A DNA stretch of 64,000 bases from an uncultured Ruminococcus sp. (lineage in GTDB: Bacteria; Bacillota; Clostridia; Oscillospirales; Ruminococcaceae), in NCBI GenBank assembly GCA_947176415.1, contig CAMWQJ010000002.1, positions 26,339 to 90,338 of the forward strand. Reading direction: 5' to 3'. Positions 13,974-22,816 of this stretch are shown in pieces (the first letter of the stretch is position 1; each line of letters begins with the position of its first letter). The translations under genes and the position numbers were made by a program. The notes under the pieces were generated by a model. The model was not told the origin of the DNA, ran no database searches, and worked only from the letters and a program-made list of their open reading frames with translations.

Positions 13974-15149
13974 TTACATTTTACTTCCTTTGCTTCCCTT
14001 TGCTCCGAAACTTCCTCCCATAGCGAGAATATTGGTATCAAAGGAATAATTTATCTTTTCGCTCATTCTGTAGCGTTTGAGTGAAAGCTGTATCATTCTT
14101 TCGAGAAGTTCGGAATATTTAACGCCTTTTGCTTCCCAGAGATAAAAAGCAAGCGAGCCGGGAATTGTGTTTATTTCGTTTATGTATACTTTATCAGTAT
14201 CCATATCAATCATGAAATCTATACGTGTAACACCGCCACAACCGAGATAACGGAAAGCCTCAACGGCGGTTTTTCTGATAAACTCTTCCTGTTCTTTGGT
14301 TATGTCGGCTGGAATCTTTCTTTTCAGTGACGCCATGCCCTTGCTACCGCCTACGTATTTATCTTTATAGCTTAAAATTTCGTCCTGCTGTACAGGCTGT
14401 TCGCATACAGAAGCCTCCGCACTCTCACTGTCTCCGACTACAGAGCAGTTTATTTCCTTGAGATGTACAACGGCAGGCTCTACTAAAATCCTGTCGGAAA
14501 ACTCAAAAGCATTATCCATTGAATCAATAAGCGACTGTCTGTCATGTGCCTTTGAAATTCCAACGCTCGAGCCAAGGTTTATGGGCTTTACGATTACGGG
14601 ATAACTGAATTTTGATTCAACCTTATCCGCGCATTCTTCTATCCTGTCAGTCTCAAATGATGAGAAACGACAACAGTCAAGCACAGGGAATCCCGCATCT
14701 TTAAGTAAGATTTTCATGACGAATTTATCCATTCCGACAGCCGACGAAAGAACATCACAACCGACATATGGAATATCAAGGGTCTGTAAATAGCCCTGTA
14801 AAGCACCGTCCTCAACGTTAGTGCCGTGTACTATCGGAAAAGCTATGTCAACGTCCGAAATATGATTAGAGCCGAATTTCTTCATTTTCTGGCGGATAAG
14901 CTGTACTTTTCCCTCACTCCTCACAAATACACATGATGTGCATTCTTTCAGCATTTCAGGAATATCCTTAAAAGAATTTATGTCAAAAAGTTTTTCGCCT
15001 GTCCAAAATTCATTTTGTTTCGTCATGTAGACAGGAATAATATTATACTTTTCCTTGTTCATGCTTGCCATAGCCTGAACGGCAGAGATTACAGAAACCT
15101 CATGTTCAACGCTTTTTCCGCCGAAAATAACAGCCATATTAATCTTCAT
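13974..15149 (-). CDS. ddl: D-alanine--D-alanine ligase family protein
   Basis: VIFGGKSVEHEVSVISAVQAM; PVIVKPINLGSSVGISKAHD; GVTRIDFMIDMDTDKVYINEINTIPGSLAFYLWEAKG. Confidence 0.93.
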   Translation of the reverse strand: MKINMAVIFGGKSVEHEVSVISAVQAMASMNKEKYNIIPVYMTKQNEFWTGEKLFDINSFKDIPEMLKECTSCVFVRSEGKVQLIRQKMKKFGSNHISDVDIAFPIVHGTNVEDGALQGYLQTLDIPYVGCDVLSSAVGMDKFVMKILLKDAGFPVLDCCRFSSFETDRIEECADKVESKFSYPVIVKPINLGSSVGISKAHDRQSLIDSMDNAFEFSDRILVEPAVVHLKEINCSVVGDSESAEASVCEQPVQQDEILSYKDKYVGGSKGMASLKRKIPADITKEQEEFIRKTAVEAFRYLGCGGVTRIDFMIDMDTDKVYINEINTIPGSLAFYLWEAKGVKYSELLERMIQLSLKRYRMSEKINYSFDTNILAMGGSFGAKGSKGSKM

Positions 15150-15168: not shown

Positions 15169-16773
15169 TCAATAATTGTCGGGAAGGTCGTTTTCAAGAA
15201 GTACAATCTTCTTTTTGTCCGTCCTGTATTCGTTTACCTTTGCTATTGCCTCGTTGAGACCGTCCGCCACATAAACGTTTTCCATGTTGTAGCCTGTTGA
15301 CTTTATGCCGTTATATATGGGTAAAGTCTGATTTTTTCCAACAAGCACAATATAGTCACAGGCTTCTGACGCTTCAACGCCAAATTCATAATTTAATTCT
15401 TCCTGTTTTGCACCGAGTTCAACCATTCCTGGAGTTACAAGGATTCGACAGGCATCGAAAAGACCGAGTACACGCAATGCACATCTGCAACCGTTAGGAT
15501 TTGAATTATAAGCGTCGTCAATATAAGTGAGATTACCGCCCCTGTCAAGCAACTGAAGTCTGTGCGGTACGGGAGAAATTCTCTTTACAGGAAGCACAAG
15601 TTTTTCAAGCGGAATGCCTGTTCCGTGACTGTATGCTATAGCACCGAGAACATTCTGTACATTGTGTTCGCCAAGTAATTTCATGTTAAATCTGCAATTT
15701 TCACCATTCGGAGCAGTAACGGTAAATTCCGTTCCTCTGTCCGATACGGAAATATCTGTTGCACGGTAGCCATTATGTTCCCTGAGACCGTAAAGCACAG
15801 CGTTTTTATATTGAGGGGCTTTTTTCATAATTAAATCATTGTCGCCGTTCAGATAGATTTTTCCGCCCACTGCCTGAACGCTGTCAGCAAGTTCAAACTT
15901 TGTATTTAAAATATTATCTATCGAGCCGAAAGTTTCTAAATGCTGTTCACCAACAGACGTAATTATAGCATCGTGCGGATTGGCTATCTCGCAAAGTTCC
16001 TTTATTTCGTGTACACGTCTTGCACCCATTTCACATATGAAATACTCGTGTGTAGGTTTCAAATGCTGACGGACTGTAATAGTCACGCCCATAGGCGTAT
16101 TGAAACTTTCGGGAGTTTTCAGCGTGTTATACTGCGAACTCAGCAACTCGCTGAGATAGAATTTCATACTTGTCTTGCCGTAACTGCCTGTAATTCCTAT
16201 TTTGTGGAGGTCGGGCATTTCAGACAAAATTCTTTTAGCGTCATTGATATACCAGTGCTGTATATATGTTTCCAGTGGCTTGTTTATAAGGTTTGACAAT
16301 GGTACAAGTATAGGAGTAAGCCATACTACAGTATTCATAATAAAATGCGGTTTATATATACCAAACGGAATATATTTCTCTGCTCCGACTTCACCTTTTT
16401 TGGCAATCAGAAAAGCCCATATAAAGCATACTGCAACTATTATAAAAAAAGTAGTCATCATACGCTTAACACGTGCCGTATATTTGAGTGGCTTTTTGAA
16501 TTTTTTTGAAGGCTTATTCAGTATGGCAATTATTATATAAGCTATGCAGAATATCGGAATAAAATAAGTCCATGCGTCAAAAGCAAAGGGCAGACCGCCA
16601 AAAAGCAACATAATTACAGGAAAAATATATCTCCTGAAATTCTTTTTCATCCACCACGAATGCTCAGGGGTTTTGTAGCCGTTCAACTGCAACATATGAA
16701 ACTCTCTCAGACTGAAAAATACAATTCCGATAAGTGCTATAACAGCGTATATACAGAAAAATATCGTATACAT
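15169..16773 (-). CDS. MurF-like Mur ligase fused to N-terminal multi-TM domain
   Basis: N-terminal about 170 aa hydrophobic; Mur ligase P-loop KIGITGSYGKTSMK; FICEMGARRVHEIKELCEIANPHDAIITSVGEQHLETFGS; YIDDAYNSNPNGC. Confidence 0.9.
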   Translation of the reverse strand: MYTIFFCIYAVIALIGIVFFSLREFHMLQLNGYKTPEHSWWMKKNFRRYIFPVIMLLFGGLPFAFDAWTYFIPIFCIAYIIIAILNKPSKKFKKPLKYTARVKRMMTTFFIIVAVCFIWAFLIAKKGEVGAEKYIPFGIYKPHFIMNTVVWLTPILVPLSNLINKPLETYIQHWYINDAKRILSEMPDLHKIGITGSYGKTSMKFYLSELLSSQYNTLKTPESFNTPMGVTITVRQHLKPTHEYFICEMGARRVHEIKELCEIANPHDAIITSVGEQHLETFGSIDNILNTKFELADSVQAVGGKIYLNGDNDLIMKKAPQYKNAVLYGLREHNGYRATDISVSDRGTEFTVTAPNGENCRFNMKLLGEHNVQNVLGAIAYSHGTGIPLEKLVLPVKRISPVPHRLQLLDRGGNLTYIDDAYNSNPNGCRCALRVLGLFDACRILVTPGMVELGAKQEELNYEFGVEASEACDYIVLVGKNQTLPIYNGIKSTGYNMENVYVADGLNEAIAKVNEYRTDKKKIVLLENDLPDNY

Positions 16774-17354
16774 TAAGTAACCTCCTTATATTTTTTGATT
16801 GAATAGAAAGGTTTGTTGAGTATGCCGGAAAGACAGACAAGCAGAGGTGTTAAATACAATGCAAAATTTACAATCATAAACGGTATGATGCTGGCAAACC
16901 AATATTTTTGTGAGTGCATACCGCATTTGCACCACATTTCGTCGCAACTCCAAAAAAAGCTTATTCTGAATATTATGGCAGTCAGAATAAAGAAAATAAT
17001 CATTATTCTTTTTGTACGCATATCACTTTTAAGCAGTTTACGGAAAGGTCTGTTTAAAAGTGATATAATAATGTTGCATATCTGAAATACTATAAGTAAC
17101 TCTCCATGCCAGTAAATCTTTTTATAGCTTGTTGCAAGCATAACAAACTGTACCGCACAAAGTGCAAACGGAAAAATATATCTCCTGTAATTTTTTCTGA
17201 TATTACGTGCATATTCAGAAATATTGTAATTGCCGTTCTGAAAAACATATAACTCTCTCTTTAAATACGAAACAATACTTAAAAGTGTTATAAAGGCGTA
17301 TATACAGAAAATTGTTACACCCACTATAAACTCTTGTTTTTCTAATGATGTCAT
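16773..17354 (-). CDS. Stand-alone paralogue of the Mur ligase N-terminal membrane domain
   Basis: 193 aa; shares RKNYRRYIFP, LLNRPFRKLLKSDMRTKRIMIIFFIL and LYLTPLLVCLSGILNKP with the neighbouring protein. Stop TAA overlaps the next ATG (TAATG). Confidence 0.85.
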   Translation of the reverse strand: MTSLEKQEFIVGVTIFCIYAFITLLSIVSYLKRELYVFQNGNYNISEYARNIRKNYRRYIFPFALCAVQFVMLATSYKKIYWHGELLIVFQICNIIISLLNRPFRKLLKSDMRTKRIMIIFFILTAIIFRISFFWSCDEMWCKCGMHSQKYWFASIIPFMIVNFALYLTPLLVCLSGILNKPFYSIKKYKEVT

Positions 17355-17359
17355 TTAGT

Positions 17360-18133
17360 TTACTCCTCGATTTTCAGGAAAGAACACATTACACGATTGA
17401 AAGTGAACTGCTGTTCAAGAAATGAATAATGCCCTGCATTTTCGAGCTTTACAAGTCCTGAATCCTTTATCAGCTTTTCCATTTTCTCGCCGTCTGATAA
17501 GGGAGTTGCCGTATCGTTTACACCCCATACCAGAAGAGTGGGACATTTTATATTCGGAATTAACGGCTCTAAATCCTCGTTTACAACCTTTACAAGCACC
17601 TGTCTCATAAGCGGAGTTGCACTCGCATAGTCCGCACTGCCGTATTTAACACGGAGTTTTTCGAGTGCGTCGGGAGCGATTTTCTGCATAATACCAGTTG
17701 AAAGTATCTTGCGGAAAAATTTATACTTACGTGTGCGGAAACTCTTTTTATTCGATTTAGGGGGCATTATTCCCGCACTGTCCACAAGAATAACATGGCT
17801 TATCTTAAACGGCAGATTCTTACGGCTGTTGAGTTTTATAATCACACGTCCGCCGAAAGAGTGACCGAGAAACATTATTTCCTTGTTGCCATAGTCCTTG
17901 ATGAAGTCAAGAACGAAATCTACATAGTCATCAACGCACCACGCCGACGGCGGTTCTTGACTTTCGCCGAATCCTGGCATATCCATAGCCACAACGGTAT
18001 ATTTTTTAGAAAGCAGGTCAATTAGATTTGCGAATAGCTTTATGTTGCTCCCCCAGCCGTGAAGCAGTACAATCAAATCTCCGTTGCCTTTCTGTTCATA
18101 GTTTATCTTGATATTATTAACTGTTTTATACAT
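17360..18133 (-). CDS. Alpha/beta hydrolase
   Basis: LIVLLHGWGSNIKLFANLIDLLSKKYTVVAMDMPGFGESQEPP; nucleophile elbow GHSFGG; NAGHYSFLEQ. Confidence 0.93.
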   Translation of the reverse strand: MYKTVNNIKINYEQKGNGDLIVLLHGWGSNIKLFANLIDLLSKKYTVVAMDMPGFGESQEPPSAWCVDDYVDFVLDFIKDYGNKEIMFLGHSFGGRVIIKLNSRKNLPFKISHVILVDSAGIMPPKSNKKSFRTRKYKFFRKILSTGIMQKIAPDALEKLRVKYGSADYASATPLMRQVLVKVVNEDLEPLIPNIKCPTLLVWGVNDTATPLSDGEKMEKLIKDSGLVKLENAGHYSFLEQQFTFNRVMCSFLKIEE

Positions 18134-18236: not shown

Positions 18237-19742
18237 TCAATTATTAAATGTGTTGGAATTTCCGCCCTGACTGTTGATTTTTTCAATAAAAATTTTCTTT
18301 TTACCGCTGTCATAGTACATTGCAACAACAGGTTTTGAAAAATCAATCTGACTTTTTTCGTTTGTAAAAGTCACGTCCGCACCTATGAAAACCTCAGCAT
18401 AATAGGCAGTAAGTTCCATATCGTTATGAATACCCGAAAAGTCAGGAATATAAATAACAGTGCCGTCAGTAACATCATCGAAAAAATCCGAAGATACAGC
18501 TTCTTCAAAAGCCTTATACTTTTCAAGATTCTTATTAAAATAAGTATTCCATGCGGTGTTGCTGAACGAACATACAAGAGTTATTGCCGATACGGCGAGG
18601 CTAAGAATAATCATTACTCTTTTTGTCGGATTTCTGAATATTTTAATCAGAACAACAACCGCAAGCATTATCATAAAAAAATAGCTGTAGAATGACGGTA
18701 CATAGCTGTATGCGTTCTGTAATGCCCAGTCGGTATACTTCTCCGTCAGGCTGATTAAAACATTCGGAAAAAGCATTCCCGCAAGACAGAAAACAACCGC
18801 CTCCGAGGTATTCACGGAAATTTTTATTTTCGGAAAAACCCTGTAAAAAGCCATACCCGAAATTACTGGGGCTGTAAAATTCCACACGCTTATTGACTTT
18901 AAAAATTCGCTGAACGTTATATATTTTTTCAGAATCATCGCCACCGCAGGCAACATCGGAAAAGTACCGACAGAAAACTTGACAAGGGCGGTTAAACTCA
19001 ATAAAATATTACCGAAATAAAACCTCGTTCCGTCATAATAAGAGGGGTGAAAATACCGCCACGCACAGTAAATAATAAGATATACGAAAAGTAAAGTCCC
19101 GTGAAAAAACAGGTCTTTTATTAAAATAACGAAACGTTCACGGAAAATTTTTCCCTTGCTGAAATAAAGCGACAGTCCAATAAACATTAGCAGAAAAACC
19201 GTCACCGACTCATACATGAAACACGCAACAAAAAACAGTACAGCACTTTTTATCCTGTACGACTTTTTGCCGATTTTGAGATATTTTATAAACAGGTCGA
19301 GCGAAAAGAGAATAACCCCTATTGGAAATTGATGTGCGAATGTATAGGCTGTAAAAAGGCTGTGCTGATTTGAAATGCAGGCAAATGAAATAAACAGCAG
19401 ACAGACAAGACAAGCGGTATTTTTTGTAGAATTATTCTTTACGAGGAAAAAAAGTCCGCACATATCGAAAGCCACAGCCATAGCCGATAATATCCTGACA
19501 GCCGTAACGGAGTTGAAATAATACGGAATCCATAATAATACAGTCATAGGTATATGATTTATTCTGCCGTTTTCCGCATAGTCCGTAACCGTTTTAAGCA
19601 AATCCCCGTGGCGTACTTCCGCATATGTCAGTATATCGTCATGCACTGTCAGTACACTTTCGGACGTTGTAAAAAAATAAGCAAGAAAAACAATCAGGAC
19701 GGACGAAATAATAAAAGTTTTTTCAGAAACCGAATGCCTCAT
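18237..19742 (-). CDS. Polytopic membrane protein (GT-C-like topology, function unknown)
   Basis: 501 aa with many hydrophobic segments; 20-bp overlap with the upstream gene. Confidence 0.7.
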   Translation of the reverse strand: MRHSVSEKTFIISSVLIVFLAYFFTTSESVLTVHDDILTYAEVRHGDLLKTVTDYAENGRINHIPMTVLLWIPYYFNSVTAVRILSAMAVAFDMCGLFFLVKNNSTKNTACLVCLLFISFACISNQHSLFTAYTFAHQFPIGVILFSLDLFIKYLKIGKKSYRIKSAVLFFVACFMYESVTVFLLMFIGLSLYFSKGKIFRERFVILIKDLFFHGTLLFVYLIIYCAWRYFHPSYYDGTRFYFGNILLSLTALVKFSVGTFPMLPAVAMILKKYITFSEFLKSISVWNFTAPVISGMAFYRVFPKIKISVNTSEAVVFCLAGMLFPNVLISLTEKYTDWALQNAYSYVPSFYSYFFMIMLAVVVLIKIFRNPTKRVMIILSLAVSAITLVCSFSNTAWNTYFNKNLEKYKAFEEAVSSDFFDDVTDGTVIYIPDFSGIHNDMELTAYYAEVFIGADVTFTNEKSQIDFSKPVVAMYYDSGKKKIFIEKINSQGGNSNTFNN

Positions 19743-20509: not shown

Positions 20510-22816
20510 ATGTCAAATAAAAACAAGGGTTTCAGACGAATCATAAGCATTTCGGCTGCTGCTGTATGCATGATGTCTGCACTCAATTTTGCACCGCTTA
20601 ACGACAATATGACTGTTGACGCTGCTGATGTCATGACAGCTTTTGAGATAACACAGGATATGAAAATAGGCTGGAACTACGGCAACTCGCTTGACGCAAG
20701 CGGTAAACTTTATAAAGACAATCCCGAAAGAAATATTTTTTCTACGGGCAATGAGGGTCTTGATGTCGAAATGTCATGGAACAATCCACGCTGTACTCAG
20801 GAAACTATGGACGCTGTAAAAGCTAAAGGCTTCAATACAGTTCGTCTTCCTACTACATGGACTCCACATATGGACGAAAACAACAAAATTGATGCTGACT
20901 GGATGGCTCGTGTTCATGAAGTTGTTGATTATTGCTACAAGAATGATATGTATGTTATTCTTAACATTCACCATGAAGAATGGATTAACCGTCCTGACTT
21001 TGATACAGCTTATGAGGAAATATCCGTCAAGTTAAAGGCTGTATGGAAACAGATTGCCGAGGAATTCAAGGACTACGACCAGCACCTTATATTTGAGGGC
21101 ATGAACGAACCCCGTGCCGCAGGACAGGAATATGAATGGTGGTTAGCTCCGTCAGCTCCTAAGGAAAAACTTTTTGAAGTTATAAACAAACTCAATCAGG
21201 ATTTCGTTGATACTGTAAGAAGCGTTGAGTCTCCTTATCAGAAAACGAGACTTCTTTCCTGTCCGCCTTACTGTGCATCGGGCAGTGATATAAACATGAT
21301 GTCAGCCCTTGAACTTCCCGACGACCCGTACGTTGCAGCGTCTGTCCATGCTTATTCGCCTTATAATTTCTGTATGGGCGACGGCGAACACAATACTTTC
21401 TCCGAAACATATGCTACTGAACTTGAGGGCATTTTAAAGAATATCCGCAAGACTTTTATCGATAATAATATACCTGTTATCCTCGGCGAATTCAGTGCCT
21501 CAAACTATAACAACACAGAGGCAAGATGTGAATGGGCTACAACATACATTTCGCTTGCGAAGAGCTATGGCTTCCCGTGTGTTCTATGGGACAACGATGC
21601 AAGAGGAAACAGCGACCAGTCCGAAGCACATGACTACCTCAACAGAGTAACTAACACATGGTATGAGGATTCAGGTCAGGTTATTGACGCAATGATGGCT
21701 GTACACGCTGACGACTCCATTGTATGGGGTGCTAGTGATTTCACAACACAGAAACAGTATAAACATGATGATATTTCAACAGGCAAGGAAATTGCCAATA
21801 CAGCAGGTGCTTATGACAGCAACGTTGACGGCAAGGAAGGCTCTCCTGCACAGATTATAAAGTTCTCCGAATTTGACGGCAAGGAAATAGCTGTAAAATA
21901 TACAGGCGGAGACCCTGAACTTGCTTTCATGGACTCCGATTGGGGTGGCTGGACAACTGTGAAGCCTTACTATATTGACGAAAAGAACGGTATTGCTTAC
22001 TTCTCATCTGATGATATAAAAACAGCGTGGGAAGCTAATAACGGCAATGTTTCAAGCCTCAACAGCGTTATCATAAGAGCAAACGGCAAGACAACAGTTG
22101 AAAAAGCTGTTATCATGAATAAGGGTACTCTTGTTGACACGCCCGACAAGCCGAAGCCTGAAACAACTACTACAACGTCTTCACAGGGCGGAAATACCAC
22201 AACCACTACCACAACAACAACCACAGAAATTCCCGATGATTTTAAATTTGAGGTTGTAAAACTTCCTGTAAAACTCAACGGCGAAAAGACATTGAAATTC
22301 ACAATTGAGGGTTCACCTTCTGCATCTGTCGGCGGTGGTATCTGCTATGACGCTGGAGAGTGGGCTTCTGTTGAATGGAGCGGTAATGTAGGAGCAAACG
22401 GCAAACTTGAAATGACTGTTGACATCTCTGATATTCCGTCATCTGTAAAAGATGCTGAAATTCAGATTTGGTGGTCTAACGTATGGGACTCAAAGACAGA
22501 AACGGGAATCGACCAGCCCGCAAAAGTTACTGTAGATTCTTCTTCTGAATCAACTAAACCAGACGGCAAGGTTTCTTACGGCGACGTTGACGAAGACGGC
22601 AGTGTAGGCATAAACGACTGTGTACTTATCATGCAGTCAATGGCAAATCCCGATAAATACACACTTTCCGAACAGGGCAGAAAGAATGCAGACGTTGTAG
22701 ACGGCGACGGCGTAACAAACTCCGATGCCCTCGCTATACAGTTCGTTGAATCGAGAACAATAACAACCGACATTTTCCCGATAACATCTGTTCAGCTTGA
22801 TGCACTCAGCAAATAA
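20510..22816 (+). CDS. Secreted GH5 endoglucanase (GH5_4-like) with two CBM-like modules and a type I dockerin
   Basis: Signal peptide; MKIGWNYGNSLDA, WNNPRCTQETMDAVKAKGFNTVRLPTTW, LIFEGMNEPR, VILGEFSAS; Thr-rich linker; dockerin repeats GDVDEDGSVGINDCVLIMQSM and NADVVDGDGVTNSDALAIQFV. Confidence 0.95.
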   Translation: MSNKNKGFRRIISISAAAVCMMSALNFAPLNDNMTVDAADVMTAFEITQDMKIGWNYGNSLDASGKLYKDNPERNIFSTGNEGLDVEMSWNNPRCTQETMDAVKAKGFNTVRLPTTWTPHMDENNKIDADWMARVHEVVDYCYKNDMYVILNIHHEEWINRPDFDTAYEEISVKLKAVWKQIAEEFKDYDQHLIFEGMNEPRAAGQEYEWWLAPSAPKEKLFEVINKLNQDFVDTVRSVESPYQKTRLLSCPPYCASGSDINMMSALELPDDPYVAASVHAYSPYNFCMGDGEHNTFSETYATELEGILKNIRKTFIDNNIPVILGEFSASNYNNTEARCEWATTYISLAKSYGFPCVLWDNDARGNSDQSEAHDYLNRVTNTWYEDSGQVIDAMMAVHADDSIVWGASDFTTQKQYKHDDISTGKEIANTAGAYDSNVDGKEGSPAQIIKFSEFDGKEIAVKYTGGDPELAFMDSDWGGWTTVKPYYIDEKNGIAYFSSDDIKTAWEANNGNVSSLNSVIIRANGKTTVEKAVIMNKGTLVDTPDKPKPETTTTTSSQGGNTTTTTTTTTTEIPDDFKFEVVKLPVKLNGEKTLKFTIEGSPSASVGGGICYDAGEWASVEWSGNVGANGKLEMTVDISDIPSSVKDAEIQIWWSNVWDSKTETGIDQPAKVTVDSSSESTKPDGKVSYGDVDEDGSVGINDCVLIMQSMANPDKYTLSEQGRKNADVVDGDGVTNSDALAIQFVESRTITTDIFPITSVQLDALSK

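Follow-up and report, generated by a model that had tools for sequence, protein, structure and literature searches.

A free-standing copy of a ligase membrane domain, encoded beside a membrane-type MurF in a group of rumen Ruminococcus, is probably a membrane partner of the enzyme

Results

Gene Organization at the Locus

The window, that is, the whole stretch of 64,000 nucleotides analyzed here and to which all positions refer unless a locus is named, contains a tightly coupled operon in the order hydrolase, short gene, Mur ligase and D-alanine--D-alanine ligase (Ddl), with the following features.

17360..18133, minus strand: alpha/beta hydrolase, which opens the conserved block (Pfam Abhydrolase_1, 3.6e-29)
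17363..17368, minus strand: Shine-Dalgarno sequence GAGGAG of the short gene, within the end of the hydrolase gene (sequence)
16773..17354, minus strand: short gene with an ATG start, a stand-alone five-helix membrane-domain paralogue of 193 aa (BLASTP, AlphaFold model, orthologues, dN/dS)
16781..16787, minus strand: Shine-Dalgarno sequence AAGGAGG of the ligase, within the final codons (..KYKEVT*) of the short gene (sequence)
16771-16775, minus strand: stop/start overlap TAATG of the short gene and the ligase (sequence; junctions compared between genomes)
15169..16773, minus strand: membrane-type MurF of 534 aa, with Mur ligase M and C domains after an N-terminal membrane domain (Pfam Mur_ligase_M, Mur_ligase_C)
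16258..16773, minus strand: ligase membrane domain, residues 1-172 (per-segment entropy, AlphaFold model)
15169..16209, minus strand: ligase catalytic part of MurF type, residues 189-534, with GSYGKTS, EMGA, QHLETFGS, TKFE, DDAYNSNP and MVELG (alignment with 1gg4 and 4cvk; Foldseek to MurF)
13974..15149, minus strand: Ddl (Pfam Dala_Dala_lig_N and _C; NF002528, 324.5 bits against a cut-off of 262)

Both open reading frames of the preliminary description were found in place (16773-17354 and 15169-16773, minus strand). As it had noted, the short gene is intact, diverged and translationally coupled, with the TAATG overlap and the ligase Shine-Dalgarno sequence in its last codons. When junctions were compared between genomes, the same TAATG junction, with the ligase Shine-Dalgarno sequence in the preceding coding end, was seen in all intact cases. 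Among the compared genomes, which are mostly metagenome assemblies, the order hydrolase, ligase, Ddl is kept in three other families and, within the genus, in nearly every locus examined. The hydrolase adjoins in nearly all relatives with a complete locus, and the adjacency of Ddl, the product of which is the dipeptide added by MurF, is also conserved.

Several observations concern the surroundings of the operon. Upstream of the hydrolase, a 501-aa membrane protein (18237-19742, minus strand) is found in G002, G003, G083, G110 and G141 and is missing at the same place in G027, G117, G140, G122, G125 and G123, representing further gain or loss at the locus. In most genomes of the short-gene clade, a well-conserved gene on the plus strand (20510-22816) lies beside the operon; judged by eye, it encodes a cellulase-like, secreted protein whose linker is rich in threonine and whose C-terminus resembles a dockerin. 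Two loci labelled Alistipes, L142 and L174 (JAMPEF010000001.1 and JAMPAJ010000001.1), are of the Ruminococcus type, and their organism names look wrong.

The Short Protein Is a Paralogue of the Ligase Membrane Domain

We found that the short protein shares 36% identity over 177 aa with the 534-aa ligase (BLASTP, E 2e-25), in an alignment spanning the entire N-terminal membrane part of the ligase. AlphaFold predicted the same layout for both proteins, with five membrane-length helices each (pLDDT 90.6 for the short model). The paralogy proposed in the preliminary description from three hand-aligned blocks is thus borne out, and the extent of the similarity indicates that the blocks do not match by chance but all lie within one end-to-end alignment (residues 16-185 against 6-169). 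The 193-aa protein matched no Pfam or NCBIfam family, Mur domains included; its reading frame stops after the fifth helix, and neither an ATPase domain nor a P-loop is present. Of the two origins that had been considered, the data agree with a partial tandem duplication, in which the membrane domain alone was duplicated. The short protein has the homology and the five-helix layout of the membrane-domain family and does not match its invariant cytosolic-loop residues (HMxQ...Y; KKP...TxRVKR).

The Ligase Is the MurF of the Lineage

MurF (UDP-N-acetylmuramoyl-tripeptide--D-alanyl-D-alanine ligase), which completes the building block of the cell wall, is essential, is described in textbooks as a soluble enzyme and serves as a drug target. 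In the ligase examined here, the Pfam domains Mur_ligase_M and Mur_ligase_C are present and the Mur N domain is absent. Its match to the MurF profile TIGR01143 covers positions 75-392 only, with 215.9 bits, under the NCBI cut-off of 288.6. Since this match begins at position 75, the UDP-binding N domain is absent, and AlphaFold placed membrane-length helices where that domain would be; in 108 same-genus genomes, the match starts at profile positions 66-82. The best PDB matches of the catalytic part were MurF enzymes, both by sequence and by fold (Foldseek), its signature residues align with those of Escherichia coli MurF 1gg4 and Pseudomonas aeruginosa MurF 4cvk, and the MurF catalytic motifs are invariant across 63 relatives. 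The membrane type therefore shares with canonical MurF (TIGR01143; 1gg4, 4cvk) the central ATPase and C-terminal domains, with GSxGKT, EMGA/ELGA, DD[AS]YN[SA]N and M.ELG, as well as the adjacent Ddl and the occurrence of one gene per genome, and it occurs where canonical MurF is absent. In contrast to canonical MurF, it lacks the UDP-binding N domain, with at least profile positions 1-65 left without a match; it has a membrane domain of five helices there, and its score of 216 bits falls short of the NCBI cut-off of 288.6.

The genome under study contains one murF-profile match at E<=1e-50. A canonical MurF elsewhere in the genome was looked for and rejected, the remaining Mur matches being weaker and of other Mur kinds. 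Among 125 same-genus genomes, 110 have the membrane type, seven have canonical MurF, eight have neither and none has both. Exactly one gene matched the murF profile at E<=1e-50 in 115 of the 125 (108 of membrane type and seven canonical), and the count of 110 adds to the 108 two genomes with pieces of the membrane type. In G033 (L088), the ligase gene is spread over several frames and preceded by a membrane-domain fragment, owing to either decay or an assembly error. Canonical MurF was found in 314 of 392 genomes of other Clostridia and only a sub-cut-off match in 70; the membrane type was present in 36 of 40 tested genomes of these 70, and both types were present in two of 27 chosen canonical-MurF genomes having an extra match, these 40 and 27 being hand-picked rather than random, so that mutual exclusion is judged from profile scores and from this chosen subset. 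The membrane type recurs in many other families of Clostridia, and when named genomes were scanned, Ruminococcus flavefaciens and its relatives came up first, followed by other Clostridia. We found no description of a membrane-anchored MurF in the open-access literature. From the MurF-like catalytic part, the presence of only one such gene and the conserved locus adjacent to Ddl, we conclude that the 534-aa protein is the MurF of these organisms, with an enzyme activity that would be that of MurF. The preliminary description had missed that this ligase stands in for canonical MurF in the lineage.

Conservation of the Membrane Domain and Partial Loss of Its Loop Signature in Stand-Alone Copies

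Among 53 close relatives, the two cytosolic loops of the ligase membrane domain (residues 23-47 and 86-106) showed entropies of 0.30 and 0.34 bits, below the 0.45 bits of the catalytic part, and the outer loops (61-67 and 127-140) were hypervariable (2.4 and 3.1 bits) and held nearly all indels. Residues H26, M27, Q29, K93, T99, R101 and R104 are invariant even across families; Y33 is invariant in the between-family set and reaches 90% or more in the larger set. The membrane domain had no sequence match in the PDB, and a Foldseek search with the short-protein model returned nothing below E 1.6 and no known membrane fold. From the helix count in the models, and because the catalytic domain has to be cytosolic, we infer a topology with the N-terminus outside, five helices and the catalytic part inside.

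The short genes deviate from MurF in the residues that are invariant in its loops. H26 is changed in seven of the eight short genes, M27, N31, H38, W41 and P95 are changed in all eight, and K90-K91 are deleted, while Q29, Y33, K44, N45, Y49, N86, P88, T153, P154, N164 and P166 are kept. Conservation among the short genes is higher in TM1 (0.81) and TM4 (0.87) than in the cytosolic loops (0.72 and 0.75), a reversal of the pattern in MurF, where these loops are conserved at 0.93-0.97, so that constraint has shifted to the helices. Two further stand-alone copies, in G088 and G013 (described below), have diverged in the loops as well: that of G088 is without H38, W41 and K93-P95, and that of G013 is changed at H38, W41, K93, P95, T99 and R104. 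Much of the conserved cytosolic-loop signature is therefore lost in all stand-alone copies, and the loops accordingly seem to be needed only jointly with the catalytic domain. This loss points to a membrane partner or modulator rather than to a second substrate site, and the short protein most likely acts through the helices and partners MurF in the membrane.

Distribution, Origin and Selection of the Short Gene

The short gene is intact at the same place in eight of 125 same-genus genomes, namely G000 (the source genome), G117, G027, G140, G088, G122, G125 and G123. The seven other orthologues share 65-78% identity with the G000 short protein, and their slot is always the gap between hydrolase and ligase. 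In G002, the gene keeps its start and its end but has lost about 270 nt between them and carries a frameshift; in G139 the gene is absent, though this genome lies inside the same clade. The eight short genes group together with full support (100/100), on a long branch nested among the membrane domains of the local species group. On the locus tree, their distribution agrees with a single gain in a clade of ten, followed by loss in G139 and decay in G002. The pair is thus conserved in other genomes and kept by selection in the clade, and the outcome that would have spoken against the preliminary description, absence or disruption in all close relatives, did not occur.

Pairwise dN/dS of the short gene, a check that had been proposed earlier, ranged from 0.11 to 0.45 at dS of 0.20-1.28, which favours a functional gene; these Nei-Gojobori values are approximate at high dS, and recombination blurs the pairs. 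The catalytic part of the ligase gave clearly lower values (0.02-0.07). In simulations, an unconstrained frame of the same length stayed open in 0.9% of cases at 0.2 substitutions per site and in none of 2000 at 0.6. Judged from the low dN/dS and from a frame that would be unlikely to stay open neutrally, the short protein is evidently under selection, weaker than that on MurF, and eight intact orthologues with dN/dS of 0.11-0.45 argue against a pseudogene, only the G002 copy being broken. The gene is nevertheless dispensable: about 100 genomes have the same MurF but not the gene, G002 has a broken copy and G139 has none.

Other origins were considered and rejected. A phage or viral origin found no relative in viral contigs or phage records, with PHROGs giving only 0.078, and no defence family was matched by PADLOC. 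A search for stand-alone-domain remnants in the hydrolase-ligase gaps of 75 named-collection loci returned only the known cases; in several of these loci, the gap is 315-415 bp long and unexplained.

Exchange of the Membrane Domain and Further Stand-Alone Copies

The ligase membrane domain falls into two deep types in the clade, A and B, which are scattered over the locus tree with five changes. Between G117 and G027, identity is 91% in the hydrolase, 88% in the short protein, 66% in the membrane domain, 90% in the catalytic part and 92% in Ddl; between G117 and G140, the membrane domains are 93% identical and the catalytic parts 82%. The short gene occurs with both types and tracks neither. 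Two other stand-alone copies were found.

L124:5069-5563, minus strand: second stand-alone domain of G088, 164 aa, between the short gene and the ligase, with both conserved loops partly deleted
L074:5640-6266 and L181:2709-3335, plus strand: stand-alone paralogue of G013, 208 aa, in the same slot

The second G088 copy is a mosaic: its nt 1-90 match the start of the ligase of the same genome at 93-100%, and its nt 136-450 match the other type, A, at 78-96%. The G013 copy lies outside the short-gene clade and is apparently of independent origin, and its closest matches are domains from other species (G035 and G001, 40%); G021, a close relative of G013, has no stand-alone copy. By these comparisons, the ligase membrane domain is exchanged between species as a cassette, and this exchange together with the G088 mosaic marks the locus as a recombination hot spot. 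Stand-alone copies plausibly first arise as by-products of such exchange.

Discussion

We favour, with a probability of about 45%, the hypothesis that the 534-aa protein is the MurF of the lineage at the membrane and that the short protein modulates or spaces it. The five-helix membrane domain replaces the UDP-binding domain of MurF, and its two basic cytosolic loops would adjoin the catalytic part, so that the enzyme would add D-Ala-D-Ala at the surface of the membrane. The 193-aa protein would have arisen when the membrane domain alone was duplicated in tandem and, with its helices kept and much of the loop signature lost, would offer no second substrate site. Translational coupling would cause it to be made together with MurF, and it would most likely pack on the MurF membrane domain, possibly as a dimer, or take its place in a MurF assembly, and so modulate or space the enzyme. 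A general class of stand-alone domain paralogues (pseudo-subunits) is encoded next to the parent enzyme. The short gene resembles them in being a partial, translationally coupled duplicate without the catalytic part and with signature residues lost, and differs in that the duplicated part is an unclassified membrane domain without a solved relative.

The heteromeric membrane complex favoured in the preliminary description is plausible as a proposal. An obligatory subunit is rejected, because about 100 same-genus genomes carry the ligase without the short gene. The two types of ligase membrane domain with which the short gene pairs differ strongly from each other, which speaks against an interface on the variable faces that is finely co-evolved. 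The conserved C-terminal tail of the short gene may be conserved only for its ribosome-binding site.

This tail bears on the view that the protein has no role at all. Membrane-domain swaps would leave duplicate frames that are kept for a time as carriers of the ribosome-binding site of an essential gene and are now being lost. The tail reads through a leader sequence also found in G139, which has no gene, the G088 chimera is clearly a recombination product, and the deletion with frameshift in G002 and the absence in G139 would be the expected losses. However, eight intact orthologues with dN/dS well under 1 at dS of up to 1.28, in a clade of single origin in which neutral frames would carry stops, make this explanation rather unlikely. 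The short gene might instead be a cassette store, silent itself but donating sequence to the MurF membrane domain by gene conversion, since exchange at the locus is real and the second G088 copy is a mosaic, but the short genes form one divergent clade, are not clearly closer to their own ligase (that of G000 is 36% identical to its own domain and 45% to those of G003 and G027), and no compared ligase has a short-type loop. Conversion from the short gene to its own ligase was not seen in this identity comparison, and we regard such a store as very improbable.

Exchange is also central to a decoy or resistance hypothesis, in which the outer face of the membrane MurF would be the target or docking site of an external agent (a bacteriocin, phage or antibiotic), cassette swaps would allow escape, and the stand-alone copy would soak up the agent or mask the target. 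The disparity between outer and cytosolic loops (2.4 and 3.1 versus 0.30 and 0.34 bits), the exchange of the membrane domain alone (66% versus 88-92% in the other parts between G117 and G027; 93% versus 82% between G117 and G140), the five changes of types A and B on the locus tree, and the separate rise of copies in the same slot of G088 and G013 agree with it. Relaxed constraint alone, however, explains variable outer loops, types A and B are the only deep types in the clade, and no such agent is known; searches found neither phage or viral relatives of the domain nor a defence-family match, and we therefore think that a decoy is unlikely. Constraint on the helices and loss of the loop signature lead us to prefer a membrane partner of MurF.

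In the textbook order of peptidoglycan synthesis, MurF acts before MraY. A bolder possibility, which we find doubtful though worth stating, is that D-Ala-D-Ala addition has moved to the membrane in a large part of the Clostridia, where MurF without an N domain would grip a lipid-linked muramyl-tripeptide (lipid I/II) via its membrane domain and reverse this order, the stand-alone domain having evolved recently as a modulator of the enzyme or a decoy for it. The lipid II amidase MurT/GatD uses lipid I and II as substrates and no soluble UDP precursor, and the uridine missing from these substrates is the part normally held by the Mur ligase N domain (PMC6085368). MurT resembles the membrane MurF in being a Mur ligase relative whose substrate has no N-domain-bound uridine; it differs in that it amidates D-Glu with GatD, whereas the catalytic part here is MurF-like and matches MurT much more weakly. 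Since MurT/GatD acts without uridine, it provides a precedent by which, on analogy, the membrane MurF may use a lipid-linked substrate.

In this group of rumen Ruminococcus, a free-standing, fast-evolving copy of the membrane domain is encoded beside the membrane MurF, probably as its membrane partner. The stand-alone domain is a natural handle on the function of the membrane part, and because several separately derived copies have lost much of the loop signature, they point to loops that act in cis with the catalytic domain. The exchange of the membrane domain across species and the variability of the outer face, on an enzyme that is essential, suggest some external pressure in the rumen. A lineage with an integral-membrane MurF without the UDP-binding domain raises a question on the order of peptidoglycan assembly, and a MurF of this type would alter which inhibitors could work in the lineage.
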